From: a virus
Direction: 5' to 3' (one strand)
Length of the DNA: 63,322 bases
Virus record (IMG/VR): IMGVR_UViG_3300022680_000066
Location: 1-63,322 of that record
This document shows positions 3,709-13,907 of the stretch, one piece after another. Every line of letters starts with the position of its first letter. The stretch's first letter is position 1. The translations under genes and the position numbers were made by a program. The notes beneath the pieces were generated by a model. The model worked only from the letters and a program-made list of their open reading frames with translations, did no database searches and was not told the origin of the DNA.

Positions 3709-4041
3709 ATGATAAAGTGGATCAAAAACCTACTAGGTATAACAGCCCTCGAAAAAGAAAACCGAGAACTCCGTACCTGTTTAAGAGCCCACACAAATTT
3801 TGTAACCAACAAGGTTGCCGAGCTTAAAGAGTACACAAGAGTCGATGCTGATGTAGGCATACGAGGCAACAACACAATCGTCCTCACTGGAGTATACAAG
3901 AGACAAGCGTACGTACACTTCTACGACGTGGGTGACGGCGAATTCGAGCGGATGGTTGAGCACATGAGAGACTTGAAGAGTCATTGCTTGATCCGACATA
4001 TTGACGCACCGCCATCTTTTAAAGGTGCGTTCAACATATAG
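3709..4041 (+). CDS. Hypothetical protein with N-terminal coiled coil
   Basis: A 110-residue protein. Residues about 10-45 (ALEKENRELRT onward) form a likely coiled coil, followed by a beta-rich stretch (NNTIVLTGVYKRQAYVHFYD). The start has the same 17-base initiation context as the gene at 3317. I do not recognise the family. It ends eight bases before a long inverted repeat that precedes the methyltransferase gene. Confidence 0.6.
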   Translation: MIKWIKNLLGITALEKENRELRTCLRAHTNFVTNKVAELKEYTRVDADVGIRGNNTIVLTGVYKRQAYVHFYDVGDGEFERMVEHMRDLKSHCLIRHIDAPPSFKGAFNI

Positions 4042-4048
4042 TGCTTTG

Positions 4049-4125
4049 AAAGGAAGGCTCTTGTTTGGTGCCGGTGGTTCCTCCCCCCCTCCACCTGCAT
4101 CATGGCCCTGCAAGAGCCTTCCTTT
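4049..4125. promoter_or_regulatory. Long intergenic inverted repeat with nested stem
   Basis: A perfect 15-bp inverted repeat, AAAGGAAGGCTCTTG (4049-4063) and CAAGAGCCTTCCTTT (4111-4125), encloses a 47-nt loop. The loop has a second stem, GGTGG (4073-4077) with CCACC (4091-4095), around a C-rich loop. It lies in the 5' leader of the ParB-methyltransferase gene, whose ATG is at 4166. It lacks a U tract after either arm, so a structured leader or protein-binding site is more likely than a terminator. Confidence 0.7.
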
Positions 4126-4165
4126 GAGAGCATCAGTCATACCGAACCCTGAAGGAGTCACAAAA

Positions 4166-5722
4166 ATGTTCTGTAACCGCGTAGTCCTTGTCCCACTATC
4201 GGACATCATCATCAAGCCTGGTCGTCAGCGTACCCAGATCCCGCCCGAGTCCGTGCTTGAGCTAGCCGAGTCCATCGCACACAAGCAGTGGATATCCCCG
4301 ATCCTCGTTGATCAAGATACCAACCAACTCGTAGCTGGTGAGCGCCGATACACCGCAGTCAGTCTATTGTGCGCTGCTGTCAACGGAGATTATTCTTCCT
4401 TCGCTGATCCCAAGGCCGCTCAAGAAATCCTCTACCCTGTTCAATCTTGCAAGGTCGAATCATGGCAGAACTGGACAAAGATCCCTGCCCAACTCGGCAG
4501 CAACTTCACCGAGCTTGATCTCCTATCCTACGAGTTCATCGAGAATCACCAGCGCAAGGACTTGTCATGGCAGGATAAAGCCAGAGCCGTCTACCAGATT
4601 CATGTCGAGGGACTCAAGACCGAAGGCTCCAACTGGAACAACACGCTCACCGGAAAGGCCACCGGCTTAGACCACTCAACTGTAGCCAAGTACCTAAAGG
4701 TCTGGCGGCCAATGGAGGACAACCCAACAAAAGAGATCGAGCTGATCCTTAAGGAATCTCCAACGCTTAATAGCGCTCTCCAATCACTCAGTCGTCACAT
4801 CAGTCGCAGACAAGACCAAGTCATATCTCTCACCACATCGACAACCAACATCAAAAGAAGTTTGCCTGAGCTAGACCAGCCTAATCTTGTCAACCCCATC
4901 AAGAAGCCAGGTCCGCAGTCCGGCACACCGAAGACCGAGGAAGGCGGGCTAACCCTCCCTGAAGAAACAGACGAAGAGTGGGAAGACCTCGTCGAGGCGC
5001 AAGCAATTACTTTTGGTGAGACCCTGCTGATCAACGCTGACGCACATAAATGGGCTGCTGATTACACCGGCCAACCGTTCAACTTTCTTCATTGCGACTT
5101 CCCCTACGGCATTGACTTCAACACCGGGGCACAAGGCAAGACCGTCGATGCCCAGCTCACAAATGATTATGACGACAGCGAAGATGTTTATTGGGCTTTG
5201 CTTGACACATTATCCCACCGTGCAAAGAGTTTGATTGCAGATTCTGCTCATATTTTATTTTGGTACTCACAAAATTTAGAAGCAGAAACAGAAACTTATT
5301 TTGCCAAGTACTTACCTGAAGCCACAGTCCAGAAATTCAAAATGATATGGCATTGCAGCGACGGCAACGGCATTGTGCCCGATCCACAACGGTACGGACG
5401 GCGCACGTATGAAACCGCCATGCTGTTAACCTTTGGTGATCGTAAAATCGTCGCGCCCAAGGCATTGTCCTTCGCCGCCCCACGTGGCACATCATCCCGT
5501 ATCCACCGAAGTCAGAAACCCGTGGCCGTCCTCCACCATTTCATGAGCATGTTTGTAGACGATGCATCCAGCGTCCTGGATTTGACTGCGGGCAGCGGCA
5601 CATCCCTGCTCGTCGCTCATCAGCTCGGGGCCAAGAGGATTACGGGCCTGGAGATCAGCGGCGAAGCATACATGGACGCAATAGCTTTCCTTAATGCACG
5701 ACAAGAGACCATAAGCTTATGA
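4166..5722 (+). CDS. ParB/HTH-DNA methyltransferase fusion (N6-adenine or N4-cytosine type, beta order)
   Basis: A 518-residue fusion. Residues 1-70 are a ParB N-terminal nuclease-like domain with the GERR box at 58-61. Residues about 130-182 are a ParB/KorB-like helix-turn-helix (ATGLDHSTVAKYLKVW). The C-terminal half is an amino-methyltransferase: motif IV is DFPY (311-314, a DPPY variant) and the SAM-binding motif DLTAGSGT starts at D472. Motif IV before motif I is the beta order. I chose ATG 4166 because GAAGGAG lies 8 bases upstream and the open frame upstream runs through a hairpin. ParB-methylase fusions are common in phages as self-protection enzymes. Here the phage also carries a canonical parS site at 49105, so DNA targeting through the ParB module deserves attention. 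Confidence 0.85.
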   Translation: MFCNRVVLVPLSDIIIKPGRQRTQIPPESVLELAESIAHKQWISPILVDQDTNQLVAGERRYTAVSLLCAAVNGDYSSFADPKAAQEILYPVQSCKVESWQNWTKIPAQLGSNFTELDLLSYEFIENHQRKDLSWQDKARAVYQIHVEGLKTEGSNWNNTLTGKATGLDHSTVAKYLKVWRPMEDNPTKEIELILKESPTLNSALQSLSRHISRRQDQVISLTTSTTNIKRSLPELDQPNLVNPIKKPGPQSGTPKTEEGGLTLPEETDEEWEDLVEAQAITFGETLLINADAHKWAADYTGQPFNFLHCDFPYGIDFNTGAQGKTVDAQLTNDYDDSEDVYWALLDTLSHRAKSLIADSAHILFWYSQNLEAETETYFAKYLPEATVQKFKMIWHCSDGNGIVPDPQRYGRRTYETAMLLTFGDRKIVAPKALSFAAPRGTSSRIHRSQKPVAVLHHFMSMFVDDASSVLDLTAGSGTSLLVAHQLGAKRITGLEISGEAYMDAIAFLNARQETISL

Positions 5723-6421: not shown

Positions 6422-7027
6422 ATGTTAATAGCCGTATTCGACACAGAAACCACAGGCATAGTCCGCGACTACCGAAGTCCTGATGCGCCCCACCTTGCCT
6501 CCATAACCGTCATCATCTACGACACCGAACTCGCCCGTGTCCAGGCATCATTCAACACGATGATCCGCCTGCCCGAGGACGTCGTGATGCCGCCCCAAGC
6601 AGCAGAAGTCAACGGTCTCACCGATGACATGCTTGAAATTTATGGCCTCAAACTTCCGACCGTACTCGACACAACGATGCAGCTTCTCGCCCCGGTCGAG
6701 CTTCTCGTCGGACACAACATAGCCTTTGATGTGAAGGTGTTGGCATCCGCTCTGTATCGCTCAGACAGGCTTGATGAGATTGACGAACTCATGATAGCAG
6801 AAACCTTCTGCACCATGCGGGAGTCCAAGCAACTTGTCCAGGCCAAGAACAAGAAGGGACACCTGAAGTTGCCCAAGCTCACCGAAGCCTACTACCACTT
6901 CTTCGAGCGCGAACTCGACAACGCACACAGCGCCAACGCTGATGCAGTGGGCACACTTGAAATCTACCTTGCCCTCATGCAGCACAAAGCAGAGGTTGAG
7001 GAAGCTGGCGGAGAGGTTAAGCTATGA
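6422..7027 (+). CDS. DnaQ-like DEDDh 3'-5' exonuclease
   Basis: A 201-residue protein of the DEDD exonuclease superfamily. Exo I is FDTETTG (D7, E9). A second acid region follows HNIAFDVKVL (the exo II aspartate), and the C-terminal AHSANADA supplies His and Asp of exo III, so it is the DEDDh class. Length fits a stand-alone DnaQ/epsilon-like nuclease. It may proofread, trim recombination ends or act in RNA turnover. It overlaps the next small gene by four bases (ATGA). It is separate from the polymerase-linked exonuclease at 9361. Confidence 0.85.
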   Translation: MLIAVFDTETTGIVRDYRSPDAPHLASITVIIYDTELARVQASFNTMIRLPEDVVMPPQAAEVNGLTDDMLEIYGLKLPTVLDTTMQLLAPVELLVGHNIAFDVKVLASALYRSDRLDEIDELMIAETFCTMRESKQLVQAKNKKGHLKLPKLTEAYYHFFERELDNAHSANADAVGTLEIYLALMQHKAEVEEAGGEVKL

Positions 7028-8432: not shown

Positions 8433-8768
8433 ATGAACCAGAAAGAACAGATTGCAAAACTCAAACGCGAGCTGGCTGCCAAAGAGCGTGAGATCAAAAA
8501 GCTCCAAGCACAGGTCACTCCTACTTCAGCCCTCGACACGCAACACGGAGGTGACCACTACAAGAAGCTCGGAATGTACCAACCCTGGATGGTGGCCCAA
8601 GCCCAGATGAATCGGATGGAGTTCCGGGGCGCGGCCAAGTTCACAGCCACAACCTATCTGGCCCGTGAGGAAGACAAGGGCGGTGATGAAGATATCTACA
8701 AAGCCTATCACACTCTCGCGATATGGATCGAGCTAGACAAACGGTATGACGAGCAAGGGAGAGGCTGA
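8433..8768 (+). CDS. DUF3310-type protein with N-terminal coiled coil
   Basis: A 111-residue protein. Residues 1-30 are a coiled coil (KEQIAKLKRELAAKEREIKKL). The rest matches the DUF3310 pattern: GGDHYKKLGMYQPWM, an FRGAAKFTATTYLAR segment in place of the usual GNAIKYVLR, then GGDEDIYKAYHTLAIW. DUF3310 proteins are widespread in phages, are sometimes labelled SaV-like nucleotide kinases, and have no firmly known role. Overlaps the next gene by one base. Confidence 0.75.
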   Translation: MNQKEQIAKLKRELAAKEREIKKLQAQVTPTSALDTQHGGDHYKKLGMYQPWMVAQAQMNRMEFRGAAKFTATTYLAREEDKGGDEDIYKAYHTLAIWIELDKRYDEQGRG

Positions 8769-9013
8769 TGCAACAAACTAAACTAGGCTCCTGGATCGAG
8801 TCATGCATGAATGTCCTTATCGGTTACGGCGTGGCGTTGCTTTCCCAAATCGCAGTCTTTCCTTGGTTCGGCATCCACGTATCGTTGGAGACTAACTTGT
8901 GGATAGGAGCCTGGTTCACTGTTATCAGTCTTATTCGCAGCTACGTTATCCGGCGCTGGTTTAATGCGCGGCTGCACAGAGCAGCTATGAAACTAGCAGG
9001 AGAGGAGGAATGA
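8768..9013 (+). CDS. Small two-helix membrane protein common in phages
   Basis: An 81-residue protein with two membrane segments (about 14-35 and 41-60) and a basic tail. The pattern LIGYGVALLSQIAVFPWFGIHV followed by NLWIGAWFTVISLIRSYVIRRWFN is a phage family I have seen as an uncharacterised membrane protein (DUF7220-like). It sits at an overlapping junction between DUF3310 and a tiny signal-peptide-like ORF. Function unknown. Confidence 0.7.
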   Translation: MQQTKLGSWIESCMNVLIGYGVALLSQIAVFPWFGIHVSLETNLWIGAWFTVISLIRSYVIRRWFNARLHRAAMKLAGEEE

Positions 9014-9108
9014 AAAGCTTTCTAATCTTAGTCCTTGCCTTCGCAACCTCGTCAACTCAGCAGGTATTGATTGGTTCTAAAGCTGCTCACTCTGTGACAG
9101 TGACTTGA
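9010..9108 (+). CDS. Tiny hydrophobic peptide (32 aa)
   Basis: A 32-codon frame beginning MKSFLILVLAFATSS, overlapping the previous stop (ATGA) with GAGGAGGA directly upstream. The N-terminus looks like a signal or membrane peptide. Its last codons overlap the consensus promoter at 9105. Likely translated because of the strong ribosome binding site; role unknown. Confidence 0.45.
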   Translation: MKSFLILVLAFATSSTQQVLIGSKAAHSVTVT

Positions 9109-9133
9109 CAACACATAAACAACACGATATAAT
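9105..9133 (+). promoter_or_regulatory. Perfect sigma-70 consensus promoter ahead of the polymerase operon
   Basis: TTGACA (9105-9110), 17-bp spacer, TATAAT (9128-9133): both hexamers are perfect. Predicted start near 9140, just before the Shine-Dalgarno of the 70-residue gene at 9152. It should fire the UDG/exonuclease-polymerase-thymidylate synthase block independently of upstream transcription. Confidence 0.85.
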
Positions 9134-9151
9134 GGTGTGGTGAGGAAACAA

Positions 9152-9364
9152 ATGACAACTACATATATGCTAGCCCTTGTACCGACAAAGGCCGAAGTAC
9201 CGAACAACTGCTTAGGCTGTGCCCTTGCGCCGCCAGCTACTGTGGTTGATTGCGAGTGTAAGTTCCGCGAGCACTGCGGCAGTGGTGTGTTCAAAGCGCG
9301 CTTCATGCCGATTGATTCTGCCTTCCTTCTCGACGAGCCGCCAAGCAATCAGGAGCTTCCATGA
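9152..9364 (+). CDS. Small cysteine-containing protein, leader gene of the polymerase operon
   Basis: A 70-residue protein with C20, C23, C34, C36 and C42, a possible metal-binding pattern (CLGC, CEC, C). ATG 9152 is preceded by GAGGA; GTG codons upstream are less well placed. It is the first gene after the consensus promoter and overlaps the UDG/exonuclease gene by four bases (ATGA). No known family. Confidence 0.55.
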   Translation: MTTTYMLALVPTKAEVPNNCLGCALAPPATVVDCECKFREHCGSGVFKARFMPIDSAFLLDEPPSNQELP

Positions 9365-10440
9365 CCTCCATTGTCTTTATCGGTGAGGCCTGGGGCGAAG
9401 CCGAGGCTCGATTTCAAACTCCCTTTGTCGGCCCGACTGGCCAGGAGCTTGCGCGCATGATGGCTCAAGCAGGTTTCGGAAACGAGCACCTCCCTTATAA
9501 CTATGTGTCCTCCGTGCGCATGATATCATACTGGGAAAGAACTGAGTTCGTTTTCCTCAACGTATTCAATGAGCGGCCAGAGAAGAACAACGTCGAGAGG
9601 TTCTATGCCAAGCCATCCGACCAAGTGCCCCTGGACAAGAAGCTGCCGCCTCGCAAGTTCGGGACATCCAACCATTATGTCAGACAAGAGCACGCTTACC
9701 ACGTTTATGATCTGCACAAGGAGCTTGAAGACCTCCAACCGAATGCGATTGTCGCTCTGGGCAACACTGCATTGTGGGCCTTGCGCCTGAATCCTGCCAT
9801 ATCGAAATTGCGGGGCAACATCATCGAATCCAAGTGGGGCAAGGTCATCCCCACCTACCACCCGGCAGCCGTCTTGCGGAACTGGTCGAACAGAACCATA
9901 AGTGTGCTCGATCTGAACAAGGCCAGACGTGAGGCCAAGTTCCCCGGCACAAAACTGCTTGACCGCTTTATCTGGACTGAACCCACAATCGAAGACCTCT
10001 ACCAATGGTGGGACGAGCATGGAAGCAAAGCTAAGGAGCTGGCTGTGGATATCGAAACCGTGCGCCGAACTCAAGTGGCTGAGATGGGATTTGCATCCAG
10101 CCCCACAATGGCACTCCATATCCCCTTCGTATATAAAGATTCGGGCCAGTATATATCCTATTGGAAGACAGCCGAGGAAGAAACCAAAGCCTGGGATTTT
10201 GTTGACATGGTGTTCCGATCAAGTGTGCCAAAGATCGGCCAGAACGTGTGCCAGTATGATGCTTATTTTATGGGCAAAGCACTAGGGATACCGCTGCTTA
10301 ATATTGCTAACGATACTATGACCTTGGCTCATTGCTGGCAACCAGAACTGGAGAAGAGCCTAGGCTTTCTTGGTTCGATATTCCTAACTGAGAGAGAGTG
10401 GAAAAGTATCCGCACTCATACTGATAAGGAGGATTTCTGA
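9361..10440 (+). CDS. UDG-like domain fused to 3'-5' exonuclease (N-terminal part of a split family-A DNA polymerase)
   Basis: A 359-residue protein. Residues 1-200 resemble family 4/SPO1-polymerase-type uracil-DNA glycosylase folds: GEAWGEAE with TPFVGPTGQEL near the N-terminus and TYHPAAVLR near 166. Residues about 220-345 are a DnaQ-type proofreading domain with exo I AVDIET and exo II QNVCQYDAYFM. The ORF stops after LTEREWKS, before any exo III motif. That motif (LYSGMD) is at the start of the polymerase ORF two genes on. So the proofreading site would need both proteins. Translation is coupled to a zinc-ribbon ORF by a TGATG overlap. UDG catalysis is uncertain. Confidence 0.82.
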   Translation: MTSIVFIGEAWGEAEARFQTPFVGPTGQELARMMAQAGFGNEHLPYNYVSSVRMISYWERTEFVFLNVFNERPEKNNVERFYAKPSDQVPLDKKLPPRKFGTSNHYVRQEHAYHVYDLHKELEDLQPNAIVALGNTALWALRLNPAISKLRGNIIESKWGKVIPTYHPAAVLRNWSNRTISVLDLNKARREAKFPGTKLLDRFIWTEPTIEDLYQWWDEHGSKAKELAVDIETVRRTQVAEMGFASSPTMALHIPFVYKDSGQYISYWKTAEEETKAWDFVDMVFRSSVPKIGQNVCQYDAYFMGKALGIPLLNIANDTMTLAHCWQPELEKSLGFLGSIFLTEREWKSIRTHTDKEDF

Positions 10441-10586
10441 TGATCATTACTTGTCCACGATGTAAAAGAGAAAACGTAAATATGCCCTCCTTTTTCAGTG
10501 AGTATTTGTGTACAAAGTGTCTTCGTACTGAATCGCTCTCTTTAAGAGAACGCCAGATACAGGCAAGAAGGAGGGCAGCTGAATGA
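10440..10586 (+). CDS. Zinc-ribbon miniprotein between the two polymerase parts
   Basis: A 48-residue protein, MIITCPRCKREN then YLCTKCLR, i.e. two CxxC pairs 20 residues apart, followed by a basic helix. It overlaps the upstream stop (TGATG) and the polymerase start (ATGA), so all three are translationally coupled. It sits exactly where the exonuclease domain is interrupted. It could be an insertion that split the polymerase or a subunit that joins the halves. Both overlaps and the intact CxxC pairs argue it is expressed. Confidence 0.65.
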   Translation: MIITCPRCKRENVNMPSFFSEYLCTKCLRTESLSLRERQIQARRRAAE

Positions 10587-13291
10587 AAGTTATCAACACA
10601 GCCAAAGCCAAGCCCGCGCTCATGTCCACCCTTGAGAGACTAGCACTCTATAGCGGCATGGACAACCTCACATTGTTCGAAATCCGTGACGGACTCATGG
10701 AGCAGATGGACGAGGGCAGGCTAAAGACTTACCACTTCGAGATGGAACTCCAAGCCGCTCTGCTTGACATGTCCTTCAATGGCATCCCTGTCGATCAGCA
10801 GGAGCGGCGCAAGATGCAAAAGGAATTCACCAAGATCCGTGAAGACCTGACTGAGTATCTCAACGAGATGCTCGATGCCATCGGCTACTTCGACTACTAC
10901 ATTCGCATGGCTGTGCATGAGTTCTCCATCGCCAGCGGAATATCCATATCCGAACTCCCTATCACCTGGGACGAGTGGAAGATGCGCTCTGTCCAGTGGC
11001 GCAGGCAGGTCAAGCAACTAACCCCAAACGAATATGATCTGAAGATTTATCACAAGGCTTTAAAAGAAGGCTACAGGTTCAACCCGAACTCACCAGCTCA
11101 AAAGCTCAAGCTGTTCTACCATTTCTTCGGCCACCCTGACAACACCACAGCAGCCGGGTATCTCTATGCCCCGCCGTGGCTCAAGACCTACGGCATTAAG
11201 GAGCACAAAGGAAAAAAATCTGACGGAACATACGGGCCCACAACCAACCGCGAGGCCCTAGAGAAGATCATCACCGCCTCCACAAAGGGCGAGAAGCACG
11301 CAGCATATTGGGCATCAGCCCTAGCCAAAGTCTGTCTCGAAATAGCCGATGTTACTAAATCTTTGGGCTTCCTCAATTGCAAGCTCGACAACGGAATCTT
11401 CCGCTCCAGTTTCGGGGCCGTGACCGAAACCGGCAGGCTCAATAGTAATAAGAACCCTATGGATCTAGGCAGTAATGGTCAAAATATCACGCCCAAACTT
11501 CGCCACATTCTGACGTGCCCACCTGGATGGAAGATCGCCGCTCCCGACTACAGCCAGATCGAGTCCCAGAACGTGGGCGCAATTTGCTTCAGCCGGTTTG
11601 ATATGGACGCATACTTGACAGCCTGCGCCTGCGGCGACCTTCACACCCTTGTATGCTCCATGGTCTGGGAGGACATGCCTTGGCCCGAGGACTTCAACAT
11701 CAAAGCCCTTCAACAACACGGTAAGTTCCCCAAGGATATTGTGAAGGCGGCTAAGAAAGTAGCAGGCGGAATCTTCTACCGACATTTCACTTTCAGAGAT
11801 GCCGTTAAACGCCTAGGCCATGGCTGCCTTACGGCAGGACACGAAGTATTAACTCCTTCTGGTTGGGCTCCTATTGAATCAAAGCCTCCAGTGATAATGC
11901 AAAAAGATGGAACATTTACTCGCGTATCTAATTGGATTGACAAAGAATATACAGGTAGTTTTGTTCAATGGGAAGGGCTATCTATTTCTACTACCATGAC
12001 AGCCAATCACCGAGTGTATTACACAACCACAGCTGATGGAGCTTTGTCCGTCAAGCCTGCAAGTCGTGTACCGCAATCAGCTCGCGTTGCACTAAACGGA
12101 TACCATCGTGGCGGCCCAATAAGCGAGCCCTATGCTAAGTTGCTAGCTGCTTATCATTGTGATGGGCACTGGCAAGGCTATCACCAAACAGAGTTCCATT
12201 TCCACAAACACAGAAAAATCGAGAGAATCAAAAAGCTTGCTGCAGAGGCAGGTATCTCAATCGCGCATCGACAAGATGCTACAAAAGTAATTTTAAACTG
12301 GGTTCCGAGACTACATGCACCAGATTGGGCTATGCTTAATTGGGATCGTAAGTCTTTGCAAGCTTACATGAGTGAACTTAAATGGTGGGACGGACACATC
12401 AGTGAAACAGCTGTATCTCTTCATTCAGCAAAACAAGATTGGTTAGAGATGTGGCAGACCTTTAACAGGCTCCTTGGTAAAGGGGGTAACCTGCAGAAGC
12501 CTCGTTTATCAGGGTACGGAACTGTCATGTATTCTCTTCAAGAGAATAATAGAAAGTATGCTAATCGTCCATCATTTAAAGTAGATAAAACCTTTGAAGC
12601 CACTGAGCAAGTGTATTGTCCAACTGTTCCGAACGCAGCGTTTTACATTCGACGTAACGGTAAAATCTCTTTGACAGGGAATAGCAACTACATGGGCAAA
12701 CCAGCACACATGGCCACACAAACTCGTATACCGAAGAAGTTGATCGAGCATTTTCAAGAAGGTTACTTTGAGGCCTTCCCCGAAATCCCTCGGTGGCACG
12801 ATTGGGTGGCCGAGCAGATCCAGACTGAGGGCGAGATCATCACACTCCTTGGCCGAGCGCGCAGGTTCTTCGGTCGGCCCAATGAGGACAAAACAATCCG
12901 CGAAGCCGTAGCATATGAGCCTCAATCAATGGGGGCGGATTACACCAACAAAGCCCTATTGGATTTACATAAGGCGTCCATGAGCGGTGAGTTACCTATC
13001 AAAATCTTTCTTCAAAAACACGATGAGATCGGTTTTCGCTTTCTTGAGAAAGACGAGGATTTTTGTGTAGCTCAGGCTCAGAAGATCATGGAACATCACG
13101 TCACCCTCACAAGCCCGAGCGGGCGAACACGAGATTGGTATGTGCCTACGGAGTTTGAAAGTGGTTGGAATCTTGGTGTTGTTGGTACGGAATACTATGC
13201 GCCCAATGGCCCGAACCCGAACGGGCTAAGCCATGTAGACAGTTCACGAGTACGAATCAAACCCAGATCTTGGGAACACTGGAAACTATAG
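10583..13291 (+). CDS. polA: Family-A DNA polymerase (palm/fingers/thumb) with intein
   Basis: A 902-residue precursor; removal of a 286-residue intein leaves 616 residues. The N-terminus carries the displaced exo III motif (LALYSGMDNLTLFEI). Polymerase motif A is APDYSQIESQNVGA and motif C is LQKHDEIGF. Motif B is FRDAVKRLGHG interrupted by the intein and resumed as SNYMGK. Aligned to E. coli Pol I, the residue at position 762 is His (R-x3-K-x3-H-x3-Y). The exonuclease core is on the protein encoded at 9361. It replicates the phage genome. Neighbours are a Zn-ribbon gene upstream and thymidylate synthase downstream. Confidence 0.92.
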   Translation: MKVINTAKAKPALMSTLERLALYSGMDNLTLFEIRDGLMEQMDEGRLKTYHFEMELQAALLDMSFNGIPVDQQERRKMQKEFTKIREDLTEYLNEMLDAIGYFDYYIRMAVHEFSIASGISISELPITWDEWKMRSVQWRRQVKQLTPNEYDLKIYHKALKEGYRFNPNSPAQKLKLFYHFFGHPDNTTAAGYLYAPPWLKTYGIKEHKGKKSDGTYGPTTNREALEKIITASTKGEKHAAYWASALAKVCLEIADVTKSLGFLNCKLDNGIFRSSFGAVTETGRLNSNKNPMDLGSNGQNITPKLRHILTCPPGWKIAAPDYSQIESQNVGAICFSRFDMDAYLTACACGDLHTLVCSMVWEDMPWPEDFNIKALQQHGKFPKDIVKAAKKVAGGIFYRHFTFRDAVKRLGHGCLTAGHEVLTPSGWAPIESKPPVIMQKDGTFTRVSNWIDKEYTGSFVQWEGLSISTTMTANHRVYYTTTADGALSVKPASRVPQSARVALNGYHRGGPISEPYAKLLAAYHCDGHWQGYHQTEFHFHKHRKIERIKKLAAEAGISIAHRQDATKVILNWVPRLHAPDWAMLNWDRKSLQAYMSELKWWDGHISETAVSLHSAKQDWLEMWQTFNRLLGKGGNLQKPRLSGYGTVMYSLQENNRKYANRPSFKVDKTFEATEQVYCPTVPNAAFYIRRNGKISLTGNSNYMGKPAHMATQTRIPKKLIEHFQEGYFEAFPEIPRWHDWVAEQIQTEGEIITLLGRARRFFGRPNEDKTIREAVAYEPQSMGADYTNKALLDLHKASMSGELPIKIFLQKHDEIGFRFLEKDEDFCVAQAQKIMEHHVTLTSPSGRTRDWYVPTEFESGWNLGVVGTEYYAPNGPNPNGLSHVDSSRVRIKPRSWEHWKL
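11825..12682 (+). mobile_element. Intein with degenerate LAGLIDADG homing endonuclease, in polymerase motif B
   Basis: Encodes residues 415-700. Block A is CLTAGHEVLTPSG starting at Cys415; block B is MTANHRVYY; two LAGLIDADG-like helices appear as AKLLAAYHCDGHW and LQAYMSELKWWDGH; block F/G is FYIRRNGKISLTGN with Asn700 followed by Ser701. The penultimate His common in inteins is replaced by Gly699. Its DNA is visibly more AT-rich than the flanking extein, as expected for a recent mobile insertion. Insertion into the active-site O-helix region guarantees strong selection for splicing. Confidence 0.88.
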
Positions 13292-13301
13292 GAGACATAA
13301 G

Positions 13302-13907
13302 ATGAACGAAACAGCACATTCAGCGTTTGAAGCTATACACCTAAAACCTAAAGAACTTTTTTATGACCCGGACAAAAAGAAATACCAAATCACAAATGAA
13401 GCTGCTTGTGTAGAAGAGGCTGCACTAACTGCGGTGCGTCTTCTATGCAGTCAGTATAATGAGGCTTGGTTTTCATTTCTTCGATATGGCGACAATCTAT
13501 ATGACTGGAAAGAAGAGGCTGAAGCAGTAGCTATTCAATGTTGGGAAGAAGCTGGAATGAAGGATCTTGATGCGGAGGCAGGAAGTAAATTATCTGCCGC
13601 GTTCGCTAGGCACCTCGCTTCTTGGGTGCAGACCGCTGCCCAGAACCAACGCAACACAGAGTTCTATCGTGACCTAATCCAGCGTTGTGGCAAGGCCATC
13701 GGCGAACGAGCTTACACTGCTGACGACGGCTCACGAGCACAAGACGTACTGGCTTTGAAAGTGCCTGAGATTATCGAAGCTGATTATGCGAAGCTTAATT
13801 CAATTGTCTGCCCTACCTGCCACTTTGTATCTATTGTTCTTAGCAAAACCTGTCAGAACGAGAATTGCCCCACAAACAAAGAGGAGAACCGAGATGCCCA
13901 AAGATAA
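13302..13907 (+). CDS. Hypothetical protein with C-terminal zinc ribbon
   Basis: A 201-residue mostly helical protein. Residues about 169-188 contain CPTC and CQNENC, a likely zinc knuckle. The start has AGGAG 8 bases upstream. It follows the polymerase directly and overlaps the next gene by 14 bases. No recognised family; a DNA- or polymerase-associated role is only suggested by position. Confidence 0.55.
   Translation: MNETAHSAFEAIHLKPKELFYDPDKKKYQITNEAACVEEAALTAVRLLCSQYNEAWFSFLRYGDNLYDWKEEAEAVAIQCWEEAGMKDLDAEAGSKLSAAFARHLASWVQTAAQNQRNTEFYRDLIQRCGKAIGERAYTADDGSRAQDVLALKVPEIIEADYAKLNSIVCPTCHFVSIVLSKTCQNENCPTNKEENRDAQR

Follow-up and report, generated by a model that had tools for sequence, protein, structure and literature searches.

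How does a phage proofread its DNA, when the nuclease of its polymerase is encoded by two separate genes? The question is raised by the window analyzed here, the whole 63,322-nucleotide stretch of IMG/VR virus record IMGVR_UViG_3300022680_000066, where the proofreading nuclease is cut between motifs exo II and exo III, and the two halves lie on two open reading frames (ORFs). The favored answer, to which a probability of about 0.8 is given, is an ancient and fixed fission in the nuclease, with a slot for cargo genes at the break: the products act, we infer from conservation and modeling, as a two-subunit enzyme.

All parts of the locus lie on the plus strand. The first ORF (9361-10440, 359 aa) codes for a family-4-like UDG domain, followed by exo I (DIET, 10048-10056, with catalytic D230 and E232) and exo II (QNVCQYD, with catalytic D300 at 10258-10260), and ends before exo III. 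The latter motif, YSGMD (residues 23-27, with Y23 and D27; 10649-10663), is found at the N-terminus of the second ORF (10583-13291, 902 aa), ahead of a family A polymerase domain. The gap is occupied by a 48 aa, zinc-ribbon-like ORF (10440-10586) of the CxxC...CxxC type (CPRC...CTKC), without family match above cut-off, which overlaps the upstream ORF by one base and the downstream one by four. Two AAGGAGG sequences, resembling Shine-Dalgarno sites, are present: one (10426-10432) within the final codons of the exo half, coding for its DKEDF tail, 7 nt upstream of the next ATG; the other (10568-10574), for the polymerase half, 8 nt upstream of the ATG at 10583. Motifs, overlaps and coordinates are those given by the initial annotation, whose description of the N-terminus as UDG-like also holds.

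Domain assignments were obtained from several sources. Pfam finds UDG in the first ORF (5.8e-18) and DNA_pol_A in the second (4.9e-22), where polymerase motifs A and C (DYSQIE, KHDEIGF) are also present. The PHROG profile for UDG-exo-pol proteins, phrog_17, is covered by the exo half from position 518 to 798 (3e-17) and picked up by the polymerase half from 803 (7.3e-41), only four profile positions falling between the halves: as the profile runs on from one ORF into the next, a single protein has been cut cleanly in two. Of the DEDDy signature, D-x-E of exo I and D of exo II are found in the exo half (D230, E232, D300); Y-x3-D of exo III, on the same polypeptide in unsplit relatives, is on the other ORF in 88 out of 88 split contigs. 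The best structural match of the UDG domain is the family-4 UDG 1vk2 (Z 17.5, 148 residues, rmsd 1.9, 37% identity), the structural alignment matches of the exo half being taken up by this domain. Residues 1-200 contain no cysteine, so that the four required for the [4Fe-4S] cluster of family 4 enzymes are missing; the TIGR00758 score is 62 bits, below the cut-off of 125.

The polymerase domain contains an in-frame, intein-like insert of 286 aa (11825-12682), located between HG and SNY of the O-helix, with C1 and GN/S at its ends. It is missing from the polymerases of locus L001 and of Caulobacter phage Kuura, and similar inserts (about 30-33% identity) are found in unsplit polymerases (L158-L161 and L164). 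Pfam reports no intein match for the insert, and solved structures give no convincing relative. Farther upstream in the window, an ORF at 4001-5722 appears as a fusion of a ParB-like protein with a DNA methyltransferase, kept near the polymerase in 116 split and unsplit loci.

The same junction is broken in 88 contigs from many metagenomes, featuring 75 distinct exo halves. The set results from two IMG/VR profile scans, plus Kuura, L001 and the window, and in each member both halves are split at the junction; relatives were collected with split queries, and the share of split phages is therefore not a census. Kuura (OQ067476) is the sole member of the split clade found among 50,697 phage records and the only cultured member found: in gp029-gp026 the break falls at the same junction, the gap is filled by two different small genes, and the polymerase half starts with TTG. 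Its exo half is annotated as a hypothetical protein, a failure of recognition that the split explains. No relatives were found in the genome contigs scanned for prophage hosts.

Unsplit relatives include Mel-JY34, ctMlz233, LS06, vir526, ctfzr933 and MScarn. Alignment with these UDG-exo-pol homologues, encoded by single ORFs, confirms that the nuclease is split, and places the break between a WK motif and exo III. A third IMG/VR scan, performed with unsplit queries, mostly returned single ORFs, with few breaks at other places; within this polymerase family, other breaks fall in the polymerase domain (L009, L156, L178, L180, L183) or at the UDG/exo boundary (L163, L184). In a tree of 110 concatenated proteins, built by quick maximum likelihood with SH-aLRT as the only support, 64 split loci, gathered with split queries, form one group (SH-aLRT 100), neighboring the unsplit UDG-exo-pol relatives; unsplit and otherwise split sequences are excluded from it. 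A single change accounts for the split, a value as low being reached in none of 500 shuffles. One ancient break, never followed by refusion, is the simplest reading of these sequences.

Such a break might have left behind a relic. The polymerase could be non-proofreading, or proofreading could be provided by a stand-alone protein, similar to DnaQ/epsilon and of the DEDDh type, encoded at 6422-7027 in the window, upstream of the split polymerase; the UDG-exo half would then play another role, such as DNA binding. Within the flanks examined, homologues of the DnaQ-like protein are present only in three other loci (L001, L029, L030), yet the split is clade-wide. Moreover, neither half varies at its catalytic positions throughout the clade. 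D and E of exo I are found in 75 of the 75 distinct exo halves, as is an acidic residue in exo II (D in 74, E in one); W347 and K348, beside the break, are also invariant in all 75. YxxxD of exo III is found near the N-terminus in 88 out of 88 polymerase halves, 86 by the pattern used and two as YNGTD. The halves are mostly just 35-45% identical to those of the window, and a dead nuclease would not be expected to show such invariance: a relic is accordingly regarded as unlikely. Between the window and L001, dN of the exo half is 0.095, with dS saturated.

The possibility that the two halves join was evaluated by structure prediction. Folded alone, the exo half of the window is modeled with a pLDDT of 91.7 and a pTM of 0.86, only the tail being low. 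The joined model was made for locus L014, about 55% identical to the window, where exo half, cargo and polymerase half share one frame, with two TAA codons between, and produce a read-through chain of 1029 residues. AlphaFold2 folds this chain with a mean pLDDT of 84.0 and a pTM of 0.81, the halves joining as one Klenow-like exo and polymerase unit. The exo III helix (442-467) scores 90-97, the cargo stretch below 50. Residues from about 200 to 1011 align with Klenow and Taq fragments; comparison with Klenow 1kln extends across both halves (Z 29.0, 553 aligned residues, rmsd 3.8). Being a single chain aligned with unsplit homologues, the model is biased toward the native arrangement.

According to the explanation preferred here, a single ancient event would have cut a UDG-exo-pol family A polymerase gene in the loop that separates exo II from exo III, the pieces having been kept since then as separate genes, usually translationally coupled. 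The two proteins would associate after translation, the active site of the nuclease on the UDG-exo subunit being completed by the exo III helix of the polymerase subunit, to give a two-subunit polymerase with proofreading. The initial annotation had indicated that a functional exonuclease needs an assembly of either two or three parts: the two-part version is supported by the invariant catalytic residues, taken together with the confident joined model. For its proofreader, then, the phage probably needs to bring two proteins together.

A single full-length product might still be obtained, by RNA splicing, programmed frameshift, stop read-through or ribosome bypassing of the gap: the halves lie side by side in the same direction, and phage polymerase genes with introns are known (PMC10580990). 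The relative frame of the halves, however, is evenly distributed (24, 21 and 19 over 64 loci), which excludes any single recoding event as the mechanism. Rfam, used with E up to 5, reports no intron RNA at positions 9000-13500 of the window, where just two chance matches to snoRNA/sRNA families are found, and no intron in 15 loci. Most filled gaps are almost wholly covered (about 100%) by called, coupled ORFs. The polymerase halves, in addition, feature a start of their own, with a common new N-terminus, M-x-I-I-x-T, often preceded by Shine-Dalgarno-like sequences; a KRDE-like tail closes the exo halves, and in 38 of the 64 loci its codons hold a Shine-Dalgarno core, versus a background of 23%. 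A full-length product is therefore considered very improbable.

An equally small chance is left to the zinc ribbon as a third subunit, or an assembly chaperone, joining the halves in the window phage. Its tight coupling, by overlaps of one and four bases, would fit this role, but the gap content of related loci argues against it. The nearest relatives, L001, L029 and L014 (exo halves 86%, 74% and 55% identical, respectively), carry other genes in the gap, which in L001, broken at the same point, are two small ORFs (58 and 65 aa). Homologues of the zinc ribbon were found neither in any other locus examined nor in phage records, and the three-part version of the assembly finds no support. Gap length ranges from -4 to 3,314 nt, and of the 86 contigs where a gap was called, 16 have no gene in it at all.

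The gap content is highly heterogeneous: clustering of 102 distinct cargo proteins gives 72 clusters, with 60 singletons among them, the genes being called by a simple ORF scheme, which may miscall single cargo genes and on which gap sizes also depend. Recognized families include nucleoside deoxyribosyltransferase-like proteins (phrog_355, 14 members), MazG, HNH, LAGLIDADG, RNase H and ribonucleotide reductase. Empty and filled junctions may be compared in close relatives: L045, with a gap of -4, has flanks 94% identical to those of L050, with a gap of 332; L068 and L074 (gap 1) may be set against L075, with an HNH gene in the gap. In the window itself, an ORF upstream of the exo half (8768-9013) codes for an 81 aa, membrane-type protein, whose homologues in L016, L058 and L026 lie within the gap, an indication that genes enter and leave the slot. 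The gap is best interpreted as a slot for unrelated cargo genes, with the zinc ribbon of the window as its current occupant, rather than a subunit; a break in a replication gene would thus act as a long-lived site for cargo.

A sequencing frameshift or an assembly error, finally, is ruled out, as is chance, by the recurrence of the break in 88 contigs, which come from many metagenomes and include an isolate genome: neither a read error restoring a single ORF nor a first ORF with a complete exo III, either of which would have undone the initial annotation, is found, close homologues being equally split.

As for its origin, the break may have been caused by insertion of a homing endonuclease gene, other cargo replacing it later. 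This is plausible, at slightly less than even odds. Homing-endonuclease-like cargo amounts to five proteins only, HNH in L035, L063, L075 and L085, and LAGLIDADG in L086, and the gap of the window contains no such gene. These five gaps, along with the empty and HNH-filled junction pair, fit an endonuclease origin; they fit later invasion of an existing break equally well. The same ambiguity is described for gene 43 of phage 25 (PMC2988022).

The split might also be useful in itself. Proofreading could be tuned by the amount of exo subunit associated with the polymerase, the replicase switching between proofreading and non-proofreading forms; this is a speculative reading, with rather little probability assigned to it. 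Were it true, exo III on the polymerase, with exo I and II on a separate, UDG-bearing subunit, would make a switchable replicase. Independently of its use, a cut through the proofreading active site is kept across a diverse, almost entirely uncultured phage clade, and, cultured phage Kuura being available, a direct test may be made of whether a family A replicase of two subunits proofreads in trans.

Split phage polymerases are already known. In Aeromonas phages 25 and 44RR, related to T4, the family B polymerase is divided into gp43A and gp43B, and the two proteins of phage 25 co-purify and polymerise (Petrov et al. 2010, as described in PMC2988022). As in the window, a phage replicative polymerase is made of two proteins, with inserts differing between phages (a seg endonuclease or an untranslated stretch). 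Their enzyme, however, belongs to family B and is split in few phages, while the polymerase described here is of family A, carries a UDG domain, is broken between exo II and exo III, and belongs to a single fixed clade, whose different cargo genes number in the dozens. The split NrdA of phage Aeh1, where insertion of MobE leaves two polypeptides rebuilding one active enzyme (PMC2988022), resembles the homing endonuclease model; it is, however, a different enzyme, in a single phage, whose insert is still an endonuclease, whereas such cargo is rare in the present clade.

Family A polymerases encoded by two ORFs, separated by a small unknown ORF, are found in OM43 phages MEP401 and MEP402 and in most group I genomes (PMC10580990). 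There the break falls in the polymerase domain and the exonuclease is whole in the first ORF, while here the exonuclease is cut. The unsplit phrog_17 polymerases (Mel-JY34, ctMlz233, PaBG gp205; PMC7412058) feature the same order of three domains, and Mel-JY34 and ctMlz233 also share gene neighbours with the split loci; unlike these loci, they have exo I to III together on one ORF. In the literature searched, most subscription journals being outside its scope, no paper was found that describes a break within the exonuclease, and the known cases are single phages, small groups, or breaks outside the nuclease. What sets the present case apart from these, as judged from sequence, is a break inside the proofreading exonuclease itself, kept throughout a clade.
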